From a virus: a stretch of 21,874 bases of DNA. Location: the IMG/VR virus record IMGVR_UViG_3300010354_000782, positions 1 to 21,874 of that record; one strand, written 5' to 3'. Below, piece by piece: positions 9,359-19,133 of this stretch. The first letter of the stretch is position 1, and every line of letters begins with the position of its first letter. The translations under genes and the position numbers were made by a program. The notes under the pieces are model-generated. The model ran no database searches and was not told the DNA's origin. It saw only the letters and a list, made by a program, of their open reading frames with translations.

Positions 9359-12300
9359 TTATAACTTATAGAGTGCTGAAGCTAAAGCATGGCGAACAGA
9401 AAGCGCGGTAACTTCTTTATTATTTAACCCACCAGAAATAGGTAAAGGAGATCTACCACCAGATTGCCCTACTACAGATTGTCCTTGCATAGGTGGCAAC
9501 ATAACTATACTTTGTTTTCCACCTTGATCATAAGATGGTTTTTGTTTGAGTTGATCAAGATTTGCCATCTCTTTTGCATAAAATTCTTTTGATGGATCTC
9601 CATAGATTGTCCCTGAAGATAAAGCTTCATCAGAAAATCCTCCACCACCTTCAGCACCGGGCTGGGTTCCTGATTGTTGAGCAATATCTGCTGGTGGAGG
9701 ACCACTACCTACAGGAATTGATCCTCCAAAAAATTCATTTAGAAGTGCTCTAACTTTTCTGGATCCAGCATAATCTTTCTCACCAACAGGACCACTACCT
9801 CCCCATTGATGCCCAGGAATATCAAATGCTAAACCGGAATAATGGTAAGAACCTGTTGCGTGACCACCTACACTATCAAACCCTTTAAATTCCGTGACTT
9901 TAACACCCTTAGATTTAAAGAATTTATAAGCATCAATCGCAGTTTGTCTATCACTAAAAGCAACGTGATCGTGATAATTATCAGGTGTTCCGTGCCCTGC
10001 TCTATCGTATGCTTTTCCTGCAATATTAGGACTGTTAGGATCTCCTGTTAAGTATTCTACGATTTTACCTTTAGTTCCCGACCCACCACCCTTTGCAGGA
10101 TCTCCATAAATTGTTCCTGAACTTAAAGCAGAATCAGAGAAAGATGACTGACCTGAAGTTCCTGGTGCGGTTGATCCAGGCATAACATTGTGTTGTGATG
10201 GAGTTCCTGAAGTTTCTGGAACTGAACCATCAGGTTCAATCGTTCCGCCAAAAGGAGCTTCTTTACTATACTTCGATAATGGATTAAATCTTGAAAGGAC
10301 TGCATTCTTAGGTCTTCCAGTATCTTGTGGATTTGTTGCTGCTTCCCAATGTAAGTGAGGTCCTGATGATTTTCCAGTGCTTCCAAGTTCTCCAAGAACA
10401 GTTCCTTTCTTTACTTTCTGACCTGCCCTCACAAAAGGAGGTTTATTCATATGACCATAAAAATGTCCAATTCCTTTATCATCAATCCAACTTACCCAGT
10501 TACCATATCCAGCAGAAGGTGATGGTGGAGAAGTTGCTTCAACAGTTCCATCAGTGAATGCTTGTAATTTTTCTCCTGTAGTTCCTGCAATATCAACTCC
10601 CATATGCATACCAGGAGATAATGCAAAGTTTCTCATTCCCATTCCTGAAGTAACAATACGACTTCCTCCCATAGCAAACTTAGGAAGAAGATGATGGTTA
10701 AATCCATATCCACCGCCCATATGTGATTTAATCATATTACGAATTTTATCTCCACCACTTCCCGGAGCATCATTTTGACTTAATTTATATAAATCCCATT
10801 TATCTCCAGAACCACCCCAAGCTGATGGTCCATAATTATCAGGATCCTTAGTAGCCCCTAAATCATATCGTGCTGGACTATTTTTTATCCCATCCTTCAT
10901 AGAACCAACTTCAGCATGAGTTGCTACGTTTCTAACATTAATCATACCAGCATTCCAACCCCAAGATTTTGCAATATTAGCTGCTTCTTTTGCCATCGCA
11001 TCATATTGTTTATGAGTTGGTGCTTGTGATCCAAAATTATTTTCTGTTGCTCCAGACATTCCTGCAACAGACAATCCAACACCATCACGATTTCTGTATA
11101 ATGTATGTCCTCCTGGAGTACTAAAATTTGAATATGGGAGTATTTGATGTTTCTTTCCATCTCCGGTAAAAACTGCGTGGTATCTATCCGTATAACCTGC
11201 TGGATTATTCCTAGCGGCCACATTCCAATGCAGATATATTTTACCTTTTTTTCCAGCCTTCAGATCTTTTGGATCAGGAACATTTCCATTACCATTACCA
11301 TTACCTCCCGGTTTAGAATTTGATGCGATTTTATATTTTTCTACACTTTTATTATATCTTGCTAAAAATCCCTTGGAATGAACATTCTCTTGACTTCCAC
11401 CTGGAAGTGATGGCCATACCCCTCTTAATTTTCTAGCAGCTATCATCGGATCTTTTTTCAGATCAGCAAGAAGTTTTTGTTCCCCACCGTAAAGACTTGC
11501 TAAATATGCTCTAGTAATTTTAGTCTGATTTTCTGGAGAAAACAAATCTGTTTCATAATTTAATCCAGCTGCTTCTGTCCTTTCTTTTAAAACATTTGTG
11601 CCATCAAAAACAGGAATTTGTTGAAACGCTCCTAATGCCCCACTACCTTTAATTGCTCTTTGTCGCATTCCAACTTCTCTTGCCTCAGAAATTGTCATCT
11701 TTGTTAAATTAGGAACAACTTTCTGAGGATTAACAGAATTCCATCCACCTTCTGCTCCAGCTATAGCCTCCATAAAAGCTTTAATTTCTGGTGGTGCATC
11801 ACCTGGAAGGCGGCCGCCACCACCACCGCCACCACCGCCACCTCCGCCGCCGCCACCACCGCCACCAGGAGCGGATGGGGTCTCTTTCCCCTCTTCAATG
11901 GAAGGGAACAAACCTTCTCTTGATTTTACTTCATAAAATATTTTTCTCTTTGCCCACTCAGTTAAATTCTTAGATAATGGTCCAATAATCCTTTTGTTTA
12001 GACCAGGAACGGTGAATTCATCATCCTCTAATGCTTTACCAATAGTAAATCCAAGGTCTTGAGCAGCTGCATCAGTCTGAGTCTTCTCAACCTTTGCCCC
12101 CATACCAATATCAATACCCATCTTCAATAGTTGACCTACAAAAGGTGTTCCTGCAAAGACAGAAGAAAGAGTCTTAAATCTTTCTAAACTTTTTTCGTCT
12201 TTAAGAACATCTTCTTTTGCTCTATTTTCAACATCTGGAGAAACTTTAGATGTTGCTACTGCAGGTTTCGCTTGTATGCTGGTAGTTCTACTTGGCATTG

Positions 12301-13933
12301 TTCTAGAACCGCCACCAACTCTACCCGCTGCATACTTTTGTTCAACGGGAGGAGCTGCTCTATTTGCTGATTTCGCTCCCGAAGTTACTTTATCATAAAT
12401 CGATTTTCCTGCCCAATCACCAACTGCACTACCCAAAAATCCACCGATTGCTTTTCCAGCTGCTGCCCCTATCAGAGTGCCGGCAAAAGGAACAACAGAA
12501 CCAATAGCTCCACCAACAGCACCACCAAGAACTCCAATAAGACCAGCTCCTAGTGCCGCGCCTGCTGCGCCAGCAGCTGCTCTACCAGGATTTTCACCTA
12601 AAGCAATATCAATACCCATTCCAATTAGAGCACCAACTAGAGGAACTCTCTTAAAGATTTTAGAAAATATTTTAAGTCTATTCAATAATTTTGATGACCC
12701 TTTACCACCAGCACCCGTTGTTACTGTGGGTCTATCTCTTAATGGATTTCTAAAATCAAATCCACCAGCACGACCACCTCCGCTGGTTGTTACACCAGGT
12801 CTCTGTCTAAATGGATTTCTAATATCAATACCGCCAGCACGGCCCCCTCCAGATCCTGTTACTTTAGGTCTTCCACCTTGTCCAGGTTGAGGACGTTGGA
12901 GAGCACCAGCCGCCGCACCAGCCGCAGAAGATCCTCTGCTACCAGGAGTAGATGCACCAATCAATACTGATAATGGTCCTTTAATCAATCCAGTAACAAG
13001 GTTACCAAATCTTGGGAATAATTTTCCAATAATACCACCAGCTTTACTTAAAAGTTTTCCAATTAACTTAGCAGGTGGTCCAATAATTTTAGCAGTTAAT
13101 TTAGCAACAGTCTTTATTTGTTTAGGAAATACTGTTGTTAATGTAATAATTCCAAGTCTTAATACTTGCCAAGTATTTGACAATCCTTTTGAAATGACCC
13201 CAAACACTTTACCGATTTGAGGTATATAATTCCATAAGAAATTTAATAGGCTTCCAATTAGAACATTGCTAATAAAATTCCAAATCATATCGAAAAGACT
13301 TAACTTTTTCTTTGGAATTTTTAGTTTTCCACCTCCATCTTTTTTGGGTGTCTTTTTTTCAAGATCCGATTCTTTTTCAGATGCTTTTTGTTTGCTTCTT
13401 AAAATTCTTTGATTTCTTTGATCTCTTAAAGTATTTGCTAAATTAGTTCCTAGAACTCCTTTAATCTTAATCAGAGTTTCTTTAATTGCTGTTAATTCTG
13501 TAATTAAATCTCCACCATCTGTCTTTTTATCAGAAGAGGTTGCTGGTGCCGATCCTTGAGATCTAACAATAGAAGTCGATTTAGTCTTAACTAATGCACC
13601 ACCACCTCCACCTTTAGAACCTTGTGGGATTAATTTTCTTGTTGATACTTGTTTATTATCCTTTTTGCCTTTACCAAGACCACCAAGTGCAGATTTTACT
13701 AGAGTGCCCCCAATTCCTCTTACAGCAGCACCACCAAGCCCTCTCAATAATCCTCTACCACCTCCCCTAACAGCAGCACCACCAAGACCTCTCATCAATC
13801 CACCACCAGCACCCCTTACTGCTGTAGACCTAACTAATGCACCACCACCGCCCCTGACAGCAGCACCTGCGGCACCTCTAACTGCCGCTCCACCTAGTGC
13901 TCTTAATGCTAAACCGCCGAGTAAAGGAAGCAT
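9359..13933 (-). CDS. Giant tail protein with lysozyme-like, amidase, M23 and M15-like domains (1524 aa)
   Basis: Order of parts: residues 1-90, Gly/Ala/Arg repeats (GGAAVRG); 145-200, charged helical region; 208-330, hydrophobic helices (SLFDMIWNFISNVLIGSLLNFLW...); 430-515, Gly/Ala membrane-like stretch; 690-707, 18 consecutive glycines. Next come four enzyme-like domains. About 716-866 is lysozyme-like (AGAEGGWNSVNP with a candidate catalytic Glu, GALGAFQQIP, TDLFSPENQTKI). About 898-1052 is an N-acetylmuramoyl-L-alanine amidase (YLHWN, THAEVG, RYDLG giving His/His/Asp zinc ligands). About 1095-1215 is an M23 endopeptidase (HMGVD and HLHWE both intact). About 1295-1405 is M15-like (HDHVAF, GSYHYSGLAFDI). 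It lies between a tape-measure-like gene and gp27. It is inferred to be a tail-lumen or hub protein that opens the cell wall at infection. A strong SD (AGGAG, 8 bases upstream) supports the start. Confidence 0.75.
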   Translation of the reverse strand: MLPLLGGLALRALGGAAVRGAAGAAVRGGGGALVRSTAVRGAGGGLMRGLGGAAVRGGGRGLLRGLGGAAVRGIGGTLVKSALGGLGKGKKDNKQVSTRKLIPQGSKGGGGGALVKTKSTSIVRSQGSAPATSSDKKTDGGDLITELTAIKETLIKIKGVLGTNLANTLRDQRNQRILRSKQKASEKESDLEKKTPKKDGGGKLKIPKKKLSLFDMIWNFISNVLIGSLLNFLWNYIPQIGKVFGVISKGLSNTWQVLRLGIITLTTVFPKQIKTVAKLTAKIIGPPAKLIGKLLSKAGGIIGKLFPRFGNLVTGLIKGPLSVLIGASTPGSRGSSAAGAAAGALQRPQPGQGGRPKVTGSGGGRAGGIDIRNPFRQRPGVTTSGGGRAGGFDFRNPLRDRPTVTTGAGGKGSSKLLNRLKIFSKIFKRVPLVGALIGMGIDIALGENPGRAAAGAAGAALGAGLIGVLGGAVGGAIGSVVPFAGTLIGAAAGKAIGGFLGSAVGDWAGKSIYDKVTSGAKSANRAAPPVEQKYAAGRVGGGSRTMPSRTTSIQAKPAVATSKVSPDVENRAKEDVLKDEKSLERFKTLSSVFAGTPFVGQLLKMGIDIGMGAKVEKTQTDAAAQDLGFTIGKALEDDEFTVPGLNKRIIGPLSKNLTEWAKRKIFYEVKSREGLFPSIEEGKETPSAPGGGGGGGGGGGGGGGGGGRLPGDAPPEIKAFMEAIAGAEGGWNSVNPQKVVPNLTKMTISEAREVGMRQRAIKGSGALGAFQQIPVFDGTNVLKERTEAAGLNYETDLFSPENQTKITRAYLASLYGGEQKLLADLKKDPMIAARKLRGVWPSLPGGSQENVHSKGFLARYNKSVEKYKIASNSKPGGNGNGNGNVPDPKDLKAGKKGKIYLHWNVAARNNPAGYTDRYHAVFTGDGKKHQILPYSNFSTPGGHTLYRNRDGVGLSVAGMSGATENNFGSQAPTHKQYDAMAKEAANIAKSWGWNAGMINVRNVATHAEVGSMKDGIKNSPARYDLGATKDPDNYGPSAWGGSGDKWDLYKLSQNDAPGSGGDKIRNMIKSHMGGGYGFNHHLLPKFAMGGSRIVTSGMGMRNFALSPGMHMGVDIAGTTGEKLQAFTDGTVEATSPPSPSAGYGNWVSWIDDKGIGHFYGHMNKPPFVRAGQKVKKGTVLGELGSTGKSSGPHLHWEAATNPQDTGRPKNAVLSRFNPLSKYSKEAPFGGTIEPDGSVPETSGTPSQHNVMPGSTAPGTSGQSSFSDSALSSGTIYGDPAKGGGSGTKGKIVEYLTGDPNSPNIAGKAYDRAGHGTPDNYHDHVAFSDRQTAIDAYKFFKSKGVKVTEFKGFDSVGGHATGSYHYSGLAFDIPGHQWGGSGPVGEKDYAGSRKVRALLNEFFGGSIPVGSGPPPADIAQQSGTQPGAEGGGGFSDEALSSGTIYGDPSKEFYAKEMANLDQLKQKPSYDQGGKQSIVMLPPMQGQSVVGQSGGRSPLPISGGLNNKEVTALSVRHALASALYKL
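9591..9641 (-). repeat. FSD-AL-SGTIYGDP-K motif, copy 1
   Basis: It codes GFSDEALSSGTIYGDPSK near residue 1440 of the 1524-aa protein, just after the M15-like domain. It is highly similar to copies 2 and 3 in both DNA and protein. Confidence 0.85.
10091..10144 (-). repeat. FSD-AL-SGTIYGDP-K motif, copy 2
   Basis: It codes SFSDSALSSGTIYGDPAK near residue 1270 of the 1524-aa protein, between the M23 and M15-like domains. It thus marks a domain boundary. Confidence 0.85.
11813..11866 (-). repeat. Run of 18 glycine codons
   Basis: Mixed GGT/GGC/GGA codons form an uninterrupted 18-Gly linker between the structural N-half and the enzymatic C-half of the 1524-aa protein. It is the most GC-rich spot of the window, and its edge includes a GCGGCCGC octamer. 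Confidence 0.95.
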
Positions 13934-13941
13934 CTTCTATT

Positions 13942-13946
13942 CTCCT
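13942..13946 (-). promoter_or_regulatory. Shine-Dalgarno of the 1524-aa gene
   Basis: AGGAG lies 8 bases before the ATG at 13933 and overlaps the TAG stop of the 954-aa gene. It supports this start and suggests coupled translation. Confidence 0.8.
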
Positions 13947-16809
13947 ACATTCCCCAGATGTTATAAATTGCAGCAGTTGTGATAATATTATGCTCACTGC
14001 TATCATAAGAATTAAAATACACAATTGGAGTTGATCCAGATTTTGTAGTTCCCGAGTTTGCAGTTCCTCCTTTTCCAATAGATGGTAATGGCAACATAGA
14101 TACGCTTGGTTGACTATCAGGAGTGCCTGGTATAGTAGGAGGTTTCCCAGGTGCAATAGAGGGGGAAGTTACGGGTGAAGCAACAGCAGTTGATGCTCCA
14201 CCTTGCTTTGCTAAAATGGATGCTATTAATACTTTCTTTTCTAATACTTCTCCAGTAAGTCCTTGTGCTTTACCTTCTTCTCTAGCTCTTGTAGCAGCTT
14301 CAAAAACTGCTGGATTAGATGCTCCAGGTTTTGTTGGATCTAACATTTTACTTAATTGATCCAATGACATTTTATTAAGTTGATCTTCAGATAATGATGC
14401 AGATGATGATGGTGAAGAAGGAATTAATGGTGTTGATGGTTGAGATGGAGTTGATTTCTTAGGTTCTCCTGTTTCACTTTGAGGATTTCTAGATCCAGAT
14501 CCAGTGGGTCCATTAGGTCCAGTGGGAATTAGTGGAGTGGATGGACTTACATAAGAGTCTTTTGCGGGGTCTCCATAAATTGTTCCTGAAGTCAACGCAG
14601 CATCAGAAAAACCAGGAGCGGCAGGAGCATCTGCCGCTGGAGAATCTGTAGATGTAGATTGATAATCCGCTGGATTATCAACGGCAACAGGTTGTTGTTT
14701 TAATGCCTCTGGGGCCCCGTGCTTAGAACCAGGCATCCAAGATCCGTTTGCTTTTGCAATTGCAAAGTCGACAGCTGCTCTAGATGCCATCGTCCTGGCC
14801 GTTTCATCAGATGTTCCAGGCCGTTTTTTCCATACGGCATAATTTGATTGATATGCTTGATTATACCAATAAGAAACTACAGCTTGGTCATCTAATTTTA
14901 TTTGAATATTTTTTATATTTTTATCAATATCCTTCTGACTTACATTATTGTTTAACGCAAATACTTTATATTCATTTATTAGATATTCCCTAACATTTGC
15001 AGAGTTAAGAACATTTTGACCTTCGTCACTGGAAGGATCTACTCCAAGTTTTGTATCATTATGTCCACTAAAAGTGCTAGCCCAATGCGCCTTAACCAAC
15101 TTATTAATTTGTTTTATTGTAAATGTGGATCCATTCTGAGATACTCTTAATGTGTATCCCTTTGGTGGACTTCCTACAGGGATGTATTTCGTAGAAAAAG
15201 TTCCTTTTTTATATTTCTCTGGATCGTAAATTTCTCCATTTACTATAAGTTGTCCATTTTTACTACGATTTACTGAAGGTTTTTTAACTTGAGATGGACT
15301 AGGACTAGGACTAGGTTTAGGACTGGGACTAGGGCTAGGTTTCGGACTAGGACCGCCAACTTGCCCTCCAGTTGATTTTGCCTCAATTTTAATATCTCCA
15401 AGATTAGCAACTCTTCTTGATGTTGAGCCGCCAAACATCTTATTAACTTTATCTAAGTATTCTGCTCCACCCAACCATTCAGCTGCACCAGGTTTTAAAA
15501 TATATTCACCTAAAGATAACGCAGTCAAGAATTTATCTGGACCTAATCCAGAAATATCATATGAAGTTGTTTTGGAATTTACAATTCCACCGTATTCTGA
15601 TGCAACATCACTAAAAGGATTCTTCTTTTCTCTTGGTTTTGAGACAGAACCTGCAGTGTTCATCTGAAGAACAGGAGTCTGTGGTGTAATTTGCCCTCCT
15701 GTAAATTTAAGTTGAACCTGTGGTTGAGCCTGTGGTTGTGGAGGTTGTTTTGGGTTTACTTGTTGTGGTTGAGGTTGAGGTTGTGGTGGGTTTTGTTGTC
15801 CAGTAATATTAGGTGCTTGAAGTACTGGAGCTTGTGGTATGTTCGGAATGTTTGCCTGCCCTATCTGAGGAGATCCAGGCAACATTTTTAATGCAGCATT
15901 CAAAAGACCAATCATGCCATTCAATGCAGAATTAATTGTATCGATAAAAGTTCTCACTGGTTGAACAACCATTTTATCAATAAATTGAATAACTGTATTA
16001 AAAAATCCAGTTATACCATCAATCAAACCCTGTATAGGTTTGAGAAGTATCATAGGATTTTCAAAAACAGACCAAAGAAAATTAATTGCAGACCCCAAAA
16101 GAACCATCAATATAAAGTTCTTAATCTTGTCAAAAATACTAGTGAAAGGTTTAGCAATTGCTTCTATTAAACCAGAAGCTCTTTTCTCATCTTTTTTATT
16201 TTCTAAACCTTGTTCTTTAGATCTTTTTCCACTCTTTTCAGATTCTCTTCTGAATAATTCAGAATTTTTTTTATCAGCAGAAGATTGCTTTTGTAAAACT
16301 GAAAGAATACTTTCGGTTAATCCTCTAATTTCTTTTACAATATCAAGTAAAGGTCCATTTAAAAACTTTTCTATTTCTCCAATCTTTTTTGAATTATCAT
16401 CTATTTGTTCTTCTTGTTCTTGGTCTTGCTCTGATTCTGGTGGTTGATACTTTGCCAAAGAAACTCCAGAACCTGGCAATAACTTGGCAGGATCTGTTAC
16501 TGGTTTTTGATTTGCCCCTTCACCCTGAGGTTTCTTATTGAAAAAAGAATCTACATTTATTCCTTTTTTGGATGTAGTAAATGTAGCACCCTTTAAATCT
16601 CTTACTCTTTTTCTTTCATTCGCAAGTTTTGCTAAATCTTCTGGAGATAACTTTGACTTTTCATCGAAAGCACCTTTTGCAATTGCTTCCTTCATCAAAG
16701 TCAAATATTCATCTTGGTCTAAGTCAAAGTTATCCTCTAACCCAAGAATTTTGGCAACCTCAGGATCTACTTCTTCTATTTGTTTTTTAGTAGGATCCTC
16801 GACTGACAT
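13945..16809 (-). CDS. Tape-measure/hub-like protein (954 aa)
   Basis: Residues 1-210 are charged and helical. Residues 215-310 are hydrophobic helices (FTSIFDKIKNFILMVLLGSAINFLWSVFENP...). Residues 320-366 are Pro/Gln-rich. Residues 415-460 (YDISGLGPDKFLTALSLGEYILKPGAAEWLGG...) resemble the LTPGEFV-type segment of tape-measure proteins. Residues 487-506 are a (PSPSPSPK) run. Residues 515-700 are a mixed alpha/beta domain I do not recognise. One FSD-AL-SGTIYGDP-K motif is at about 733-750, and the C-terminus is SVSMLPLP...YFNSYDSSEHNIITTAAIYNIWGM. The position right after gp26 and the gp51/T-like ORF is that of a tape-measure gene. T4 gp29 would be the functional counterpart, but I see no direct sequence match. 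The hydrophobic segment resembles that of the following 1524-aa protein. The ATG directly follows the stop of the small ORF (TAA-ATG). Confidence 0.7.
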   Translation of the reverse strand: MSVEDPTKKQIEEVDPEVAKILGLEDNFDLDQDEYLTLMKEAIAKGAFDEKSKLSPEDLAKLANERKRVRDLKGATFTTSKKGINVDSFFNKKPQGEGANQKPVTDPAKLLPGSGVSLAKYQPPESEQDQEQEEQIDDNSKKIGEIEKFLNGPLLDIVKEIRGLTESILSVLQKQSSADKKNSELFRRESEKSGKRSKEQGLENKKDEKRASGLIEAIAKPFTSIFDKIKNFILMVLLGSAINFLWSVFENPMILLKPIQGLIDGITGFFNTVIQFIDKMVVQPVRTFIDTINSALNGMIGLLNAALKMLPGSPQIGQANIPNIPQAPVLQAPNITGQQNPPQPQPQPQQVNPKQPPQPQAQPQVQLKFTGGQITPQTPVLQMNTAGSVSKPREKKNPFSDVASEYGGIVNSKTTSYDISGLGPDKFLTALSLGEYILKPGAAEWLGGAEYLDKVNKMFGGSTSRRVANLGDIKIEAKSTGGQVGGPSPKPSPSPSPKPSPSPSPSQVKKPSVNRSKNGQLIVNGEIYDPEKYKKGTFSTKYIPVGSPPKGYTLRVSQNGSTFTIKQINKLVKAHWASTFSGHNDTKLGVDPSSDEGQNVLNSANVREYLINEYKVFALNNNVSQKDIDKNIKNIQIKLDDQAVVSYWYNQAYQSNYAVWKKRPGTSDETARTMASRAAVDFAIAKANGSWMPGSKHGAPEALKQQPVAVDNPADYQSTSTDSPAADAPAAPGFSDAALTSGTIYGDPAKDSYVSPSTPLIPTGPNGPTGSGSRNPQSETGEPKKSTPSQPSTPLIPSSPSSSASLSEDQLNKMSLDQLSKMLDPTKPGASNPAVFEAATRAREEGKAQGLTGEVLEKKVLIASILAKQGGASTAVASPVTSPSIAPGKPPTIPGTPDSQPSVSMLPLPSIGKGGTANSGTTKSGSTPIVYFNSYDSSEHNIITTAAIYNIWGM
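14561..14614 (-). repeat. FSD-AL-SGTIYGDP-K motif, copy 3
   Basis: It codes GFSDAALTSGTIYGDPAK in the 954-aa protein, after an Ala/Pro-rich linker. It is the only copy in this gene; the other two are in the next gene downstream. Confidence 0.85.
15296..15352 (-). repeat. Pro-Ser coding tandem repeat
   Basis: Hexamer units of the type ggacta/ggtttа-like triplet pairs code a (P-S-P-S-P-K) run at residues 487-506 of the 954-aa protein. It is an extended, probably rigid linker. Confidence 0.75.
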
Positions 16810-16983
16810 TTATTGTTTTTGCTGTTGTTTTTGCCTTTCTTCTTCTAGATGCTGCTCTAGTAACATAACATAAACGTCACGTTCCCAAGGCATCATATTT
16901 TCAATTTCGGTCAATGAATATTTATGATACTGCATCAAAGCAAAATTCAACTTATAATAATTCTCAAGGTCCATATGGACCAT
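16810..16983 (-). CDS. gp51/T-domain-like small ORF; possible -1 frameshift extension of gp26 (57 aa)
   Basis: This short ORF starts at the ATG at 16983, 2 bases after the gp26 TAG. It ends with TAA at 16810, directly before the ATG of the 954-aa gene. The product is MVHMDLENYYKLNFALMQYH, then KYSLTEIENMMPWERDVYVMLLEQHLEEE and a Gln/Lys tail. The W-E-R-D-V-Y followed by an acidic helix resembles the small second part of phage tail assembly chaperones (lambda T-type; the place of gp51 in T4-like phages). There is no good SD before either ATG (16983 or 16974). The same frame is open upstream through CGC-GTA-GCA to a slippery T TTT TTC in gp26. It may therefore be made mainly as a fusion of about 298 residues. 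Either way it is real coding sequence, as it fills the gap exactly. Confidence 0.7.
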   Translation of the reverse strand: MVHMDLENYYKLNFALMQYHKYSLTEIENMMPWERDVYVMLLEQHLEEERQKQQQKQ

Positions 16984-17012
16984 TGCTACGCGAAAAAACT
17001 TGATAGCCCTTC
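16968..17012 (-). promoter_or_regulatory. Candidate programmed -1 frameshift cassette
   Basis: On the minus strand, in order: SD-like GAAGGG (17012-17007); 8 bases; slippery T TTT TTC (16998-16992) in the gp26 frame; 10 bases containing the gp26 TAG; then hairpin GGTCC-ATAT-GGACC (16981-16968). All three elements match the known dnaX-type arrangement. The -1 frame after the slip reads CGC GTA GCA ATG and continues through the small ORF. Confidence 0.6.
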
Positions 17013-17730: not shown

Positions 17731-17738
17731 TATTTATT
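17731..17738 (-). promoter_or_regulatory. Late-promoter-like AATAAATA before gp26
   Basis: The minus strand reads AATAAATA, 7 of 8 matches to the T4 late box TATAAATA, overlapping the gp54 stop. It lies 25 bases upstream of the gp26 ATG, a suitable distance. In AT-rich DNA such a match can occur by chance. Confidence 0.4.
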
Positions 17739-18639
17739 ACGCAATCCCAGAGGTTCCGGGAGGTCCAAAATCACCAACTGGTGCGTTAGTAGCATTTGGT
17801 GCAAAAGAGTCATAAGTAAATGTGTTTGGTAAATTTCTTAAACTATCATTAAAATATTGAGTTCCGTCCAATGCTGTTGCTGTAGTATATAACTCAGGAA
17901 CTCCTGGAGTAAATGGATAAGAAGGATTTAAAGCACCTCCATTTATTGCAGCTTGTCCTGCAGTATCTCCTATAATAGGAGGTTTTCTAGTTGTATTTTG
18001 ATAAGAAGCACTAAACCTATTATCCATTACATACCTAATGTAAGAAAAAGAAACAGTAACTTTCAATAAATCACTTGCATCATAAGATATTGGAGTCGAA
18101 ACTATATTAATTGGAAATGCTTGAATAAATTGATATGAAAGTGTAGGTCTAGAAGAAGTTTTACTTACATCTTTTTCAAATTTAATAAGATGAATATCAC
18201 TCTTATATCTTTTTGGATATTGCATTCTATAAAACGTCGCAGGATTTTTATACTGCTCTGATGTAAAATATTCCCCTTCACCGACAATAAAATTAATCCA
18301 TCCCTGGAAATATTTAATAACTGCATATTCATGATCGACATAAAAAGTCAAATCAATCGTATCATCGTAAATTCTACGATACACCATTTTTTCAGTGGAT
18401 CCATGATAATCATTATTAACTTCGTGTGTTGCCAAACTAGATCCAGGAAGACTTGCTTCACAACAAGCAAGATTAATCATTTCCTTATGCCTTACTTGAC
18501 TAACTCCCCTACTAGAAACAAAAGAATTTACGGAGGGGTTTGTCAATACTTCTACCATATAAACAGAAGTCTGCGCCGGACGCATCAATTTCTGTTTAAT
18601 TTCCGAAACCTTATAATGCTTTGCTACAGCTCCTGCCAT
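17737..18639 (-). CDS. gp54: gp54 baseplate tail tube initiator
   Basis: I choose the ATG at 18639 (MAGAVAKHYKVSEIKQKLM...), giving 300 aa, close to T4 gp54 (320 aa). A longer frame from 18753 adds 38 residues (DLLYIFEDFVDEIF...) but would run across the divergent promoter region and the start of gp4 on the other strand. Matches to the T4 tube-like fold include TFYVDHEYAVIKYFQGWINFIVG and, near residues 190-215, AFPINIVSTPISYDASDLLKVTVSFSYIRYVM. The latter aligns by eye with the T4 gp54 segment PISVSSPELSYDGDNQITTFDVTFAYRVM. The last 80 residues are Pro/Gly/Thr-rich and loop-like. gp54 binds gp48 on the hub and starts tube polymerisation. Here gp54 and gp48 are on opposite strands, separated by gp4. 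Confidence 0.82.
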   Translation of the reverse strand: MAGAVAKHYKVSEIKQKLMRPAQTSVYMVEVLTNPSVNSFVSSRGVSQVRHKEMINLACCEASLPGSSLATHEVNNDYHGSTEKMVYRRIYDDTIDLTFYVDHEYAVIKYFQGWINFIVGEGEYFTSEQYKNPATFYRMQYPKRYKSDIHLIKFEKDVSKTSSRPTLSYQFIQAFPINIVSTPISYDASDLLKVTVSFSYIRYVMDNRFSASYQNTTRKPPIIGDTAGQAAINGGALNPSYPFTPGVPELYTTATALDGTQYFNDSLRNLPNTFTYDSFAPNATNAPVGDFGPPGTSGIA

Positions 18640-18642
18640 TAG

Positions 18643-18650
18643 GATAAATA
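18643..18650 (+). promoter_or_regulatory. Late-promoter-like GATAAATA before gp4
   Basis: GATAAATA lies 28 bases before the gp4 ATG, in the 38-base gap between the divergent gp54 and gp4 starts. It matches 7 of 8 bases of the T4 late box. It would start a transcript about 10-15 bases before the ATG. Confidence 0.5.
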
Positions 18651-18677
18651 TTTTATTATATATTATGTAGTCAGGAT

Positions 18678-19133
18678 ATGAGGGATCGAGAAAGTAAATA
18701 TCATCAAGGAAGATTTCATCCACAAAATCCTCAAAAATATAAAGGAGATCCAAGAAATATTATTTACAGAAGTTCTTGGGAACTTCGGTTCATGAGATAC
18801 TGTGATCGAAAGGTAAATATTTTAGAATGGGGTAGTGAAGAATTTTTTATACCTTATGTCGACCCAACAACAAATAAAGTTAGAAGATATTATCCCGATT
18901 TCATTATCAAAGTTCAAGAGCAAAATGGATTGATTAAAAAATATTTAATTGAAGTCAAACCAAAAAAACAAACTAGGCCACCTGTTCGTTCTCCAAAAAA
19001 ACAAAATAAAACTTATATAACTGAAGCACTAACTTATGAAAAAAATGTTGCTAAATGGAGAGCAGCAAAAGAATGGTGTGATGATAGAAGAATAGAATTC
19101 AGAATTATCACAGAAGACGAATTAGGTCTATAA
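18678..19133 (+). CDS. gp4: gp4 head completion protein (nuclease fold)
   Basis: The 151-aa product matches T4 gp4 (150 aa) over nearly all its length: KYKGDPRNIIYRSSWELRFMRY, ILEWGSEEFFIPY, RRYYPDFIIKV, YLIEVKPKKQTRPPV and KWRAAKEWCDDRRIEFRIITEDEL. T4 gp4 joins filled heads to tails (head completion) and belongs to a nuclease-like family. The PD-(D/E)xK-type residues are present: E35 in the SSWE helix, D74 in YPDF, and E92-V-K94. The catalytic potential therefore seems intact. The ATG at 18678 has AGGA close upstream. The stop overlaps a perfect TATAAATA late box for gp48. A small head gene between divergent tail-tube genes is an economical late module. Confidence 0.93.
   Translation: MRDRESKYHQGRFHPQNPQKYKGDPRNIIYRSSWELRFMRYCDRKVNILEWGSEEFFIPYVDPTTNKVRRYYPDFIIKVQEQNGLIKKYLIEVKPKKQTRPPVRSPKKQNKTYITEALTYEKNVAKWRAAKEWCDDRRIEFRIITEDELGL

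Follow-up and report, generated by a model that had tools for sequence, protein, structure and literature searches.

The sequence analyzed here (the window) is a 21,874-base virus record from IMG/VR, a fragment of an uncultured marine T4-like phage. A gp26 gene and a small ORF are adjacent on its minus strand, flanked by a tail-tube-family gene upstream and a tape-measure-like gene downstream (Table 1), and the closest named relative at the gp26/small-ORF locus is the Prochlorococcus phage P-TIM68. On the minus strand, gp26 ends with ..AGT TTT TTC GCG TAG, in which GCG separates a T_TTT_TTC heptamer from the stop codon, placing the heptamer 3 nt before the gp26 stop. The downstream hairpin is made up of GGTCC (16981-16977), ATAT (16976-16973) and GGACC (16972-16968). 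When this strand was re-read, the SD-like element, heptamer, TAG and stem proved to have been described correctly to the base in the original prediction. A -1 slip into the 57-codon ORF had also been proposed to give 298 aa, which agrees with the length of the predicted product (238 + 60 = 298 aa); the -1 frame translation across the junction is ..S S F F R V A M V H M D L E N Y Y...

Table 1. Features of the gp26 locus in the window and unannotated TAC-C domains in relatives (TAC, tail assembly chaperone)
Feature	Positions	Strand	Evidence
Tail-tube-family gene (gp19/gp54-like), directly upstream	17737..18753	-	PF23849 Phage_TTP_2 E 1.9e-18; phrog_45 E 1.7e-34
gp26 gene, predicted TAC-N, zero-frame product 239 aa	16986..17705	-	PF12322, phrog_150, AlphaFold2 model
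GAAGGG, SD-like, 8 nt upstream of the slip heptamer	17007..17012	-	Sequence; family-wide anti-SD pairing
Putative slippery heptamer T_TTT_TTC	16992..16998	-	In phase in 241/242 distinct junctions; codon invariance
gp26 zero-frame stop TAG	16986..16988	-	Sequence
5-bp hairpin GGTCC-ATAT-GGACC starting 10 nt past the heptamer; restricted to one lineage, potential stimulator	16968..16981	-	RNA fold, clade comparison
Small ORF, 57 aa, predicted C-terminal domain of TAC-NC	16810..16983	-	phrog_634, phrog_150 240-281/282, start-codon loss
Tape-measure-like gene, 954 aa, directly downstream, TAA-ATG junction	13945..16809	-	Weak, phrog_4200 E 6.5e-4
TAC-C domain, Aeh1	L161:4717-4884
TAC-C domain, ACG-2014j	L175:4714-4893
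TAC-C domain, ZPAH1	L285
TAC-C domain, LPCS28	L290

The tape-measure match is weak in the window and stronger in HTVC008M, where the gene in the corresponding region has a phrog_58 match (E 8e-12) and carries the annotation putative tail tape measure; one small ORF lies in between. On the other side of the pair, the gene before gp26 is annotated as gp54 in Aeh1. In the window, the listed TTG start of the tail-tube-family gene at 18753 overlaps a divergent gp4-like ORF (18678-19133), and translation probably begins at an internal ATG instead (MAGAVAKHYK..). Two other genes were observed in such neighborhoods. Downstream of both the pair and the 954-aa gene, positions 9359-13933 of the window code for a 1524-aa protein with Peptidase_M23, a sub-threshold Amidase_2 match and tape-measure-like PHROG matches. 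The gene that immediately follows the pair in S-PM2 (1167 aa, L171:4167-7670) matches ADP-ribosyltransferase-like families and a phage tail lysozyme domain.

Conservation around the putative slip site

Heptamer frequency alone was dropped as evidence, since no enrichment was observed in the window: TTTTTTC occurs 14 times compared to 16.8 expected, and 64 in-phase X_XXY_YYZ heptamers are present in the window's genes. As judged from the sequences, chance does not account for a heptamer that lies so close to the end of gp26 and is also conserved. The small ORF was in the -1 frame in every one of the 158 junctions examined first, comprising the window and 157 loci from viral contigs, some of which overlap, and the T-run occupied the same place in all junctions listed. 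A wider set contained 242 distinct gp26/small-ORF junctions, with gp26 identity down to ~26%, and took in Kyanoviridae, Pelagibacter and Methylophilales phages, Sinorhizobium phiM7, Aeh1, Schizotequatrovirus-type Vibrio phages and Pseudomonas phage Milchi. An alignment of this kind had been suggested as a check in the original prediction, and both T-run and frame were conserved in it: the small ORF was in the -1 frame in 241/242 distinct junctions and T_TTT_TTY was in phase near the gp26 stop in 241/241 (220 TTTTTTC and 21 TTTTTTT), counts that ignore relatedness of the sequences and hence represent neither independent events nor probabilities.

Codon choice at the site was equally constrained. 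In each of the 240 sequences that have Phe there, the first Phe codon of the heptamer was TTT, and it was the sole column with a codon entropy of 0 among ~50 conserved degenerate gp26 codon columns. The base preceding this codon was T in 241/241, behind codons for S, D, N, A, G and T. In addition, the -1 frame of several relatives is closed by a stop at -13, right before the heptamer, implying that their second frame would be reachable only by a slip on the heptamer itself.

The one exception to the conserved frame was Stenotrophomonas phage IME-SM1, which has T5 at the slip site (L163:4736-4760). Moby (L264), the one relative read base by base, has T6 at the same site, and alignments of the other relatives are one base longer there. 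On this comparison, the T5 run is best explained as a deletion or sequencing error, and a +1/-2 frameshift lineage was discarded as an explanation. The annotated gp26 of IME-SM1 (280 aa) runs on in another frame because of the T5 run.

An SD-like element upstream of the slip, a dnaX-type feature and putative stimulator, was also present. Across the family, anti-SD pairing upstream of the slip was -6.86 kcal/mol, compared to -5.17 +/- 0.09 kcal/mol under synonymous recoding, and such an excess was absent at three control positions. The upstream Leu-Glu-Gly codons are skewed to G, towards an SD-like GGAGGG: GAG accounts for 66% of Glu codons at this site and 28% elsewhere, and GGG for 26% of Gly codons compared to 6% elsewhere. 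These data suggest that an SD-like element at translational spacing is under selection.

Homology of the pair and predicted fold of gp26

Gp26 of the window matches PF12322 T4_baseplate (E 6.6e-76) and phrog_150 (E 2.5e-80). Its AlphaFold2 model (pLDDT 87) was compared with solved structures, and the best of 999 aligned chains were 2ob9 (Z 8.0), 3fgx (7.8) and 3klu (7.2), values in a range where common arrangements can occur and which alone are borderline; the next match was at Z 4.9. With an rmsd of 4.1 over 84-86 residues, these three alignments were limited to the first ~90 residues of gp26. However, 2ob9 is the HK97 tail assembly chaperone, and all three proteins have been called phage tail assembly chaperones (PMC9603447); it is this agreement among the top three matches to the model, not Z alone, that gives the fold evidence its weight. 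A plain Foldseek search of the model against PDB returned nothing significant, with 2ob9 ranked fifth, and the gp26 profile gave only chance matches against the sequences of solved structures (best E 0.1).

The small ORF matches phrog_634 (E 4.7e-28) and positions 240-281 of the 282 positions of phrog_150 (E 4.1e-6), a family with its N part matched by the window gp26 and its C part by the small ORF. Among T4 proteins, gp26 matches PF12322 and positions 14-235 of phrog_150, and gp51 (249 aa) matches PF12322 with its N part and covers positions 13-280/282 of phrog_150, which points to T4 gp51 as the full-length equivalent of the frameshifted product. Because T4 gp51 spans phrog_150 and the small ORF matches only its end, the small ORF most plausibly corresponds to the C-terminal domain in a protein like gp51, for which gp26 supplies the N-terminal domain. 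The relation to gp51 that was originally proposed for the small T/gp51-like ORF therefore stands, but not as a small gp51; the ORF would rather be the C-terminal domain of a gp51-like TAC-NC. T4 gp51 is required for tail assembly and absent from the particle (PMC3004832), as expected of a chaperone.

Proposed decoding and its alternatives

Anatomy, conservation, homology and fold point to gp26 and the small ORF as one TAC cistron that is very probably decoded in two ways via programmed -1 frameshifting; the slip, its efficiency and the chaperone action are predictions. Most ribosomes would halt at TAG, yielding TAC-N (gp26, 239 aa). A minority would slip back one base on T_TTT_TTC, with Phe-tRNA in both P and A sites, bypass TAG and produce TAC-NC (298 aa), with the small ORF as its C-terminal domain. 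Likely helpers of the slip would be the upstream SD-like GAAGGG and, in this clade, the downstream 5-bp hairpin. By analogy to lambda G/GT, the N domain may coat the tape measure protein encoded just downstream, and the C domain may recruit tail-tube subunits.

Alternatively, gp26 could stop at TAG and a separate 57-aa protein could start at its own ATG, through reinitiation or leaky coupling, with the T-run being incidental. An ATG is indeed present a few bases after the stop in the window and in many relatives, reinitiation after such a close stop is possible, and database records annotate two CDS. However, 68 of the 241 relatives have no ATG, GTG or TTG between the slip and the conserved core of the small ORF. 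A candidate start with an SD-like motif was found in only 30/241, compared to 141/235 gp26 starts, and the motif was present at 70/172 starts of the gene downstream. The window does keep an ATG, with no SD preceding it, consistent with the original observation that the small ORF lacks a good SD of its own. The residues before the usual ATG are themselves conserved, with R in 88% of sequences right after the slip. None of the six T's varies, even where synonymous codons would allow it, and in T4 gp51 the same C domain forms one protein with an N domain resembling gp26, so that two genes are a very improbable arrangement here. RNA polymerase, instead of the ribosome, could also slip on T6 and generate mRNAs of altered length, as T runs can cause such slippage and 21/241 junctions have T7 rather than T6C. 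Yet polymerase slippage would not need the X_XXY_YYZ phase, which is always kept, the run is short for it, and the apparently selected SD-like element at translational spacing would act on ribosomes; we regard this transcriptional route as extremely unlikely, even more so than two genes.

The role of the hairpin was considered separately. In the window, the RNA fold has -9.7 kcal/mol (z -1.7), and a perfect 5-bp stem located 10 nt downstream of the heptamer could be taken for an essential, conserved frameshift stimulator, as in dnaX. Among junctions with H-M-D at the hairpin place (HMD clade), stems alternate between GGTCC/GGACC and GATCC/GGATC, and all 5 pairs were kept in 31/60 distinct segments, compared to 22.6 +/- 1.9 in synonymous shuffles (maximum 28), although the hairpin overlaps conserved coding sequence. 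Outside this clade, however, it was fully formed in just 2/96 distinct segments, where the slip site is equally conserved. An essential role is therefore unlikely, and the hairpin as a family-wide element was dropped; unlike the SD-like element, a conserved downstream stem-loop of the dnaX type occurs in the window and its clade and not across the family. The hairpin would be at most an accessory of the HMD clade. Thus, of the dnaX/lambda-like cassette originally proposed, the hairpin is real in the window, but the cassette does not generally include it.

With frameshifting as the preferred mode of decoding, assignment of gp26 as TAC-N and of gp26 plus the small ORF as TAC-NC is supported. The G/GT-type chaperone pair suggested in the original prediction is likewise favored by the conserved frame and slip site, recurrent start-codon loss, gene position, fold and homology to gp51.

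Other lineages and known systems

Six Ackermannviridae-type gp26/TAC-C junctions (L167, L283, L284, L286, L287 and L289) keep the -1 frame, lack the T6 run and have an NTT_TTY site near the gp26 stop. A TAATG stop-start overlap was present in 4/6 of them; Kuja and phiA8-29 have no nearby ATG. Scans of viral_contigs for Vibrio and Ackermannviridae gp26 found no relatives. Tentatively, and with some doubt, the mode of making TAC-NC may have changed more than once, being based on an invariant combination of SD and T_TTT_TTY in marine and many other T4-like phages, on two divergent genes in T4, and on a relaxed NTT_TTY site or a TAATG overlap close to the same position in Ackermannviridae. If true, these changes would form a natural set of comparisons for finding out why the slip is required.

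The proposed decoding also has consequences for annotation. A TAC-C domain was detected in the -1 frame after gp26, unannotated, in Aeh1, ACG-2014j, ZPAH1 and LPCS28 (Table 1), and a joined gp26-small ORF annotation was found in none of the named genomes examined. It was reported that cyanophage gp51 has ~20% of the normal length, with the first ~200 residues missing, and that gp51 seemed absent in Aeh1 (Sullivan et al. 2010, PMC3037559). Both the short and the "missing" gp51 would be explained if most "gp51" annotations in marine T4-like phages represent not a gene but the C-terminal part of a chaperone made by frameshifting. A simple annotation rule, joining the two ORFs at T_TTT_TTY, could then be applied to hundreds of genomes.

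Among known systems, lambda G/GT also consists of a pair of overlapping ORFs ahead of the tape measure gene, with a -1 slip close to where the first one ends, and the N domain of the window gp26 resembles the tail assembly chaperone of HK97. Lambda G/GT slips on GGGAAAG, whereas the window would use T_TTT_TTC with an upstream SD-like element. In E. coli dnaX, an SD-like element lies upstream of a homopolymer-type heptamer, a hairpin lies downstream, and the slip is in the -1 direction. The window has the same set of features; however, the dnaX slip leads to a shortened product (gamma) and that in the window would lead to a longer one, and the window hairpin is clade-specific. The pair belongs to the same family as T4 gp26 and gp51 (PF12322/phrog_150), with the same TAC-N/TAC-NC relation, but T4 makes the two forms from two divergent genes, 26 and 51, whereas the window would make them from one cistron with a -1 slip. 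Vladimirov and colleagues are said to have found frameshifting kept in several T4-like groups, with T4 using separate genes 26 and 51.

According to PMC12846349 and PMC10885494, TAC genes of T4-like phages were identified by Vladimirov, Gautam & Davidson 2022 (Virology 566:9-15). The poly-T slip, which the window shares, is attributed to T4-like TAC-N genes in PMC12846349, citing Vladimirov et al. 2022. The statement in the original prediction that such a pair was not known to be described for T4-like marine phages does not hold for T4-like phages in general, given this work as cited in PMC12846349: the arrangement is already known there, and the window adds another case. In the literature searched by name, no prior report in cyanophages was found. 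In Vandenendeviridae and Andersonviridae, which are other phage families, a T-run in the 3'-terminal part of the TAC-N gene likewise serves for a -1 slip, and the C domain is commonly listed as a hypothetical gene of its own; their motif is GTTTTT, i.e., T5 preceded by G (PMC12846349).
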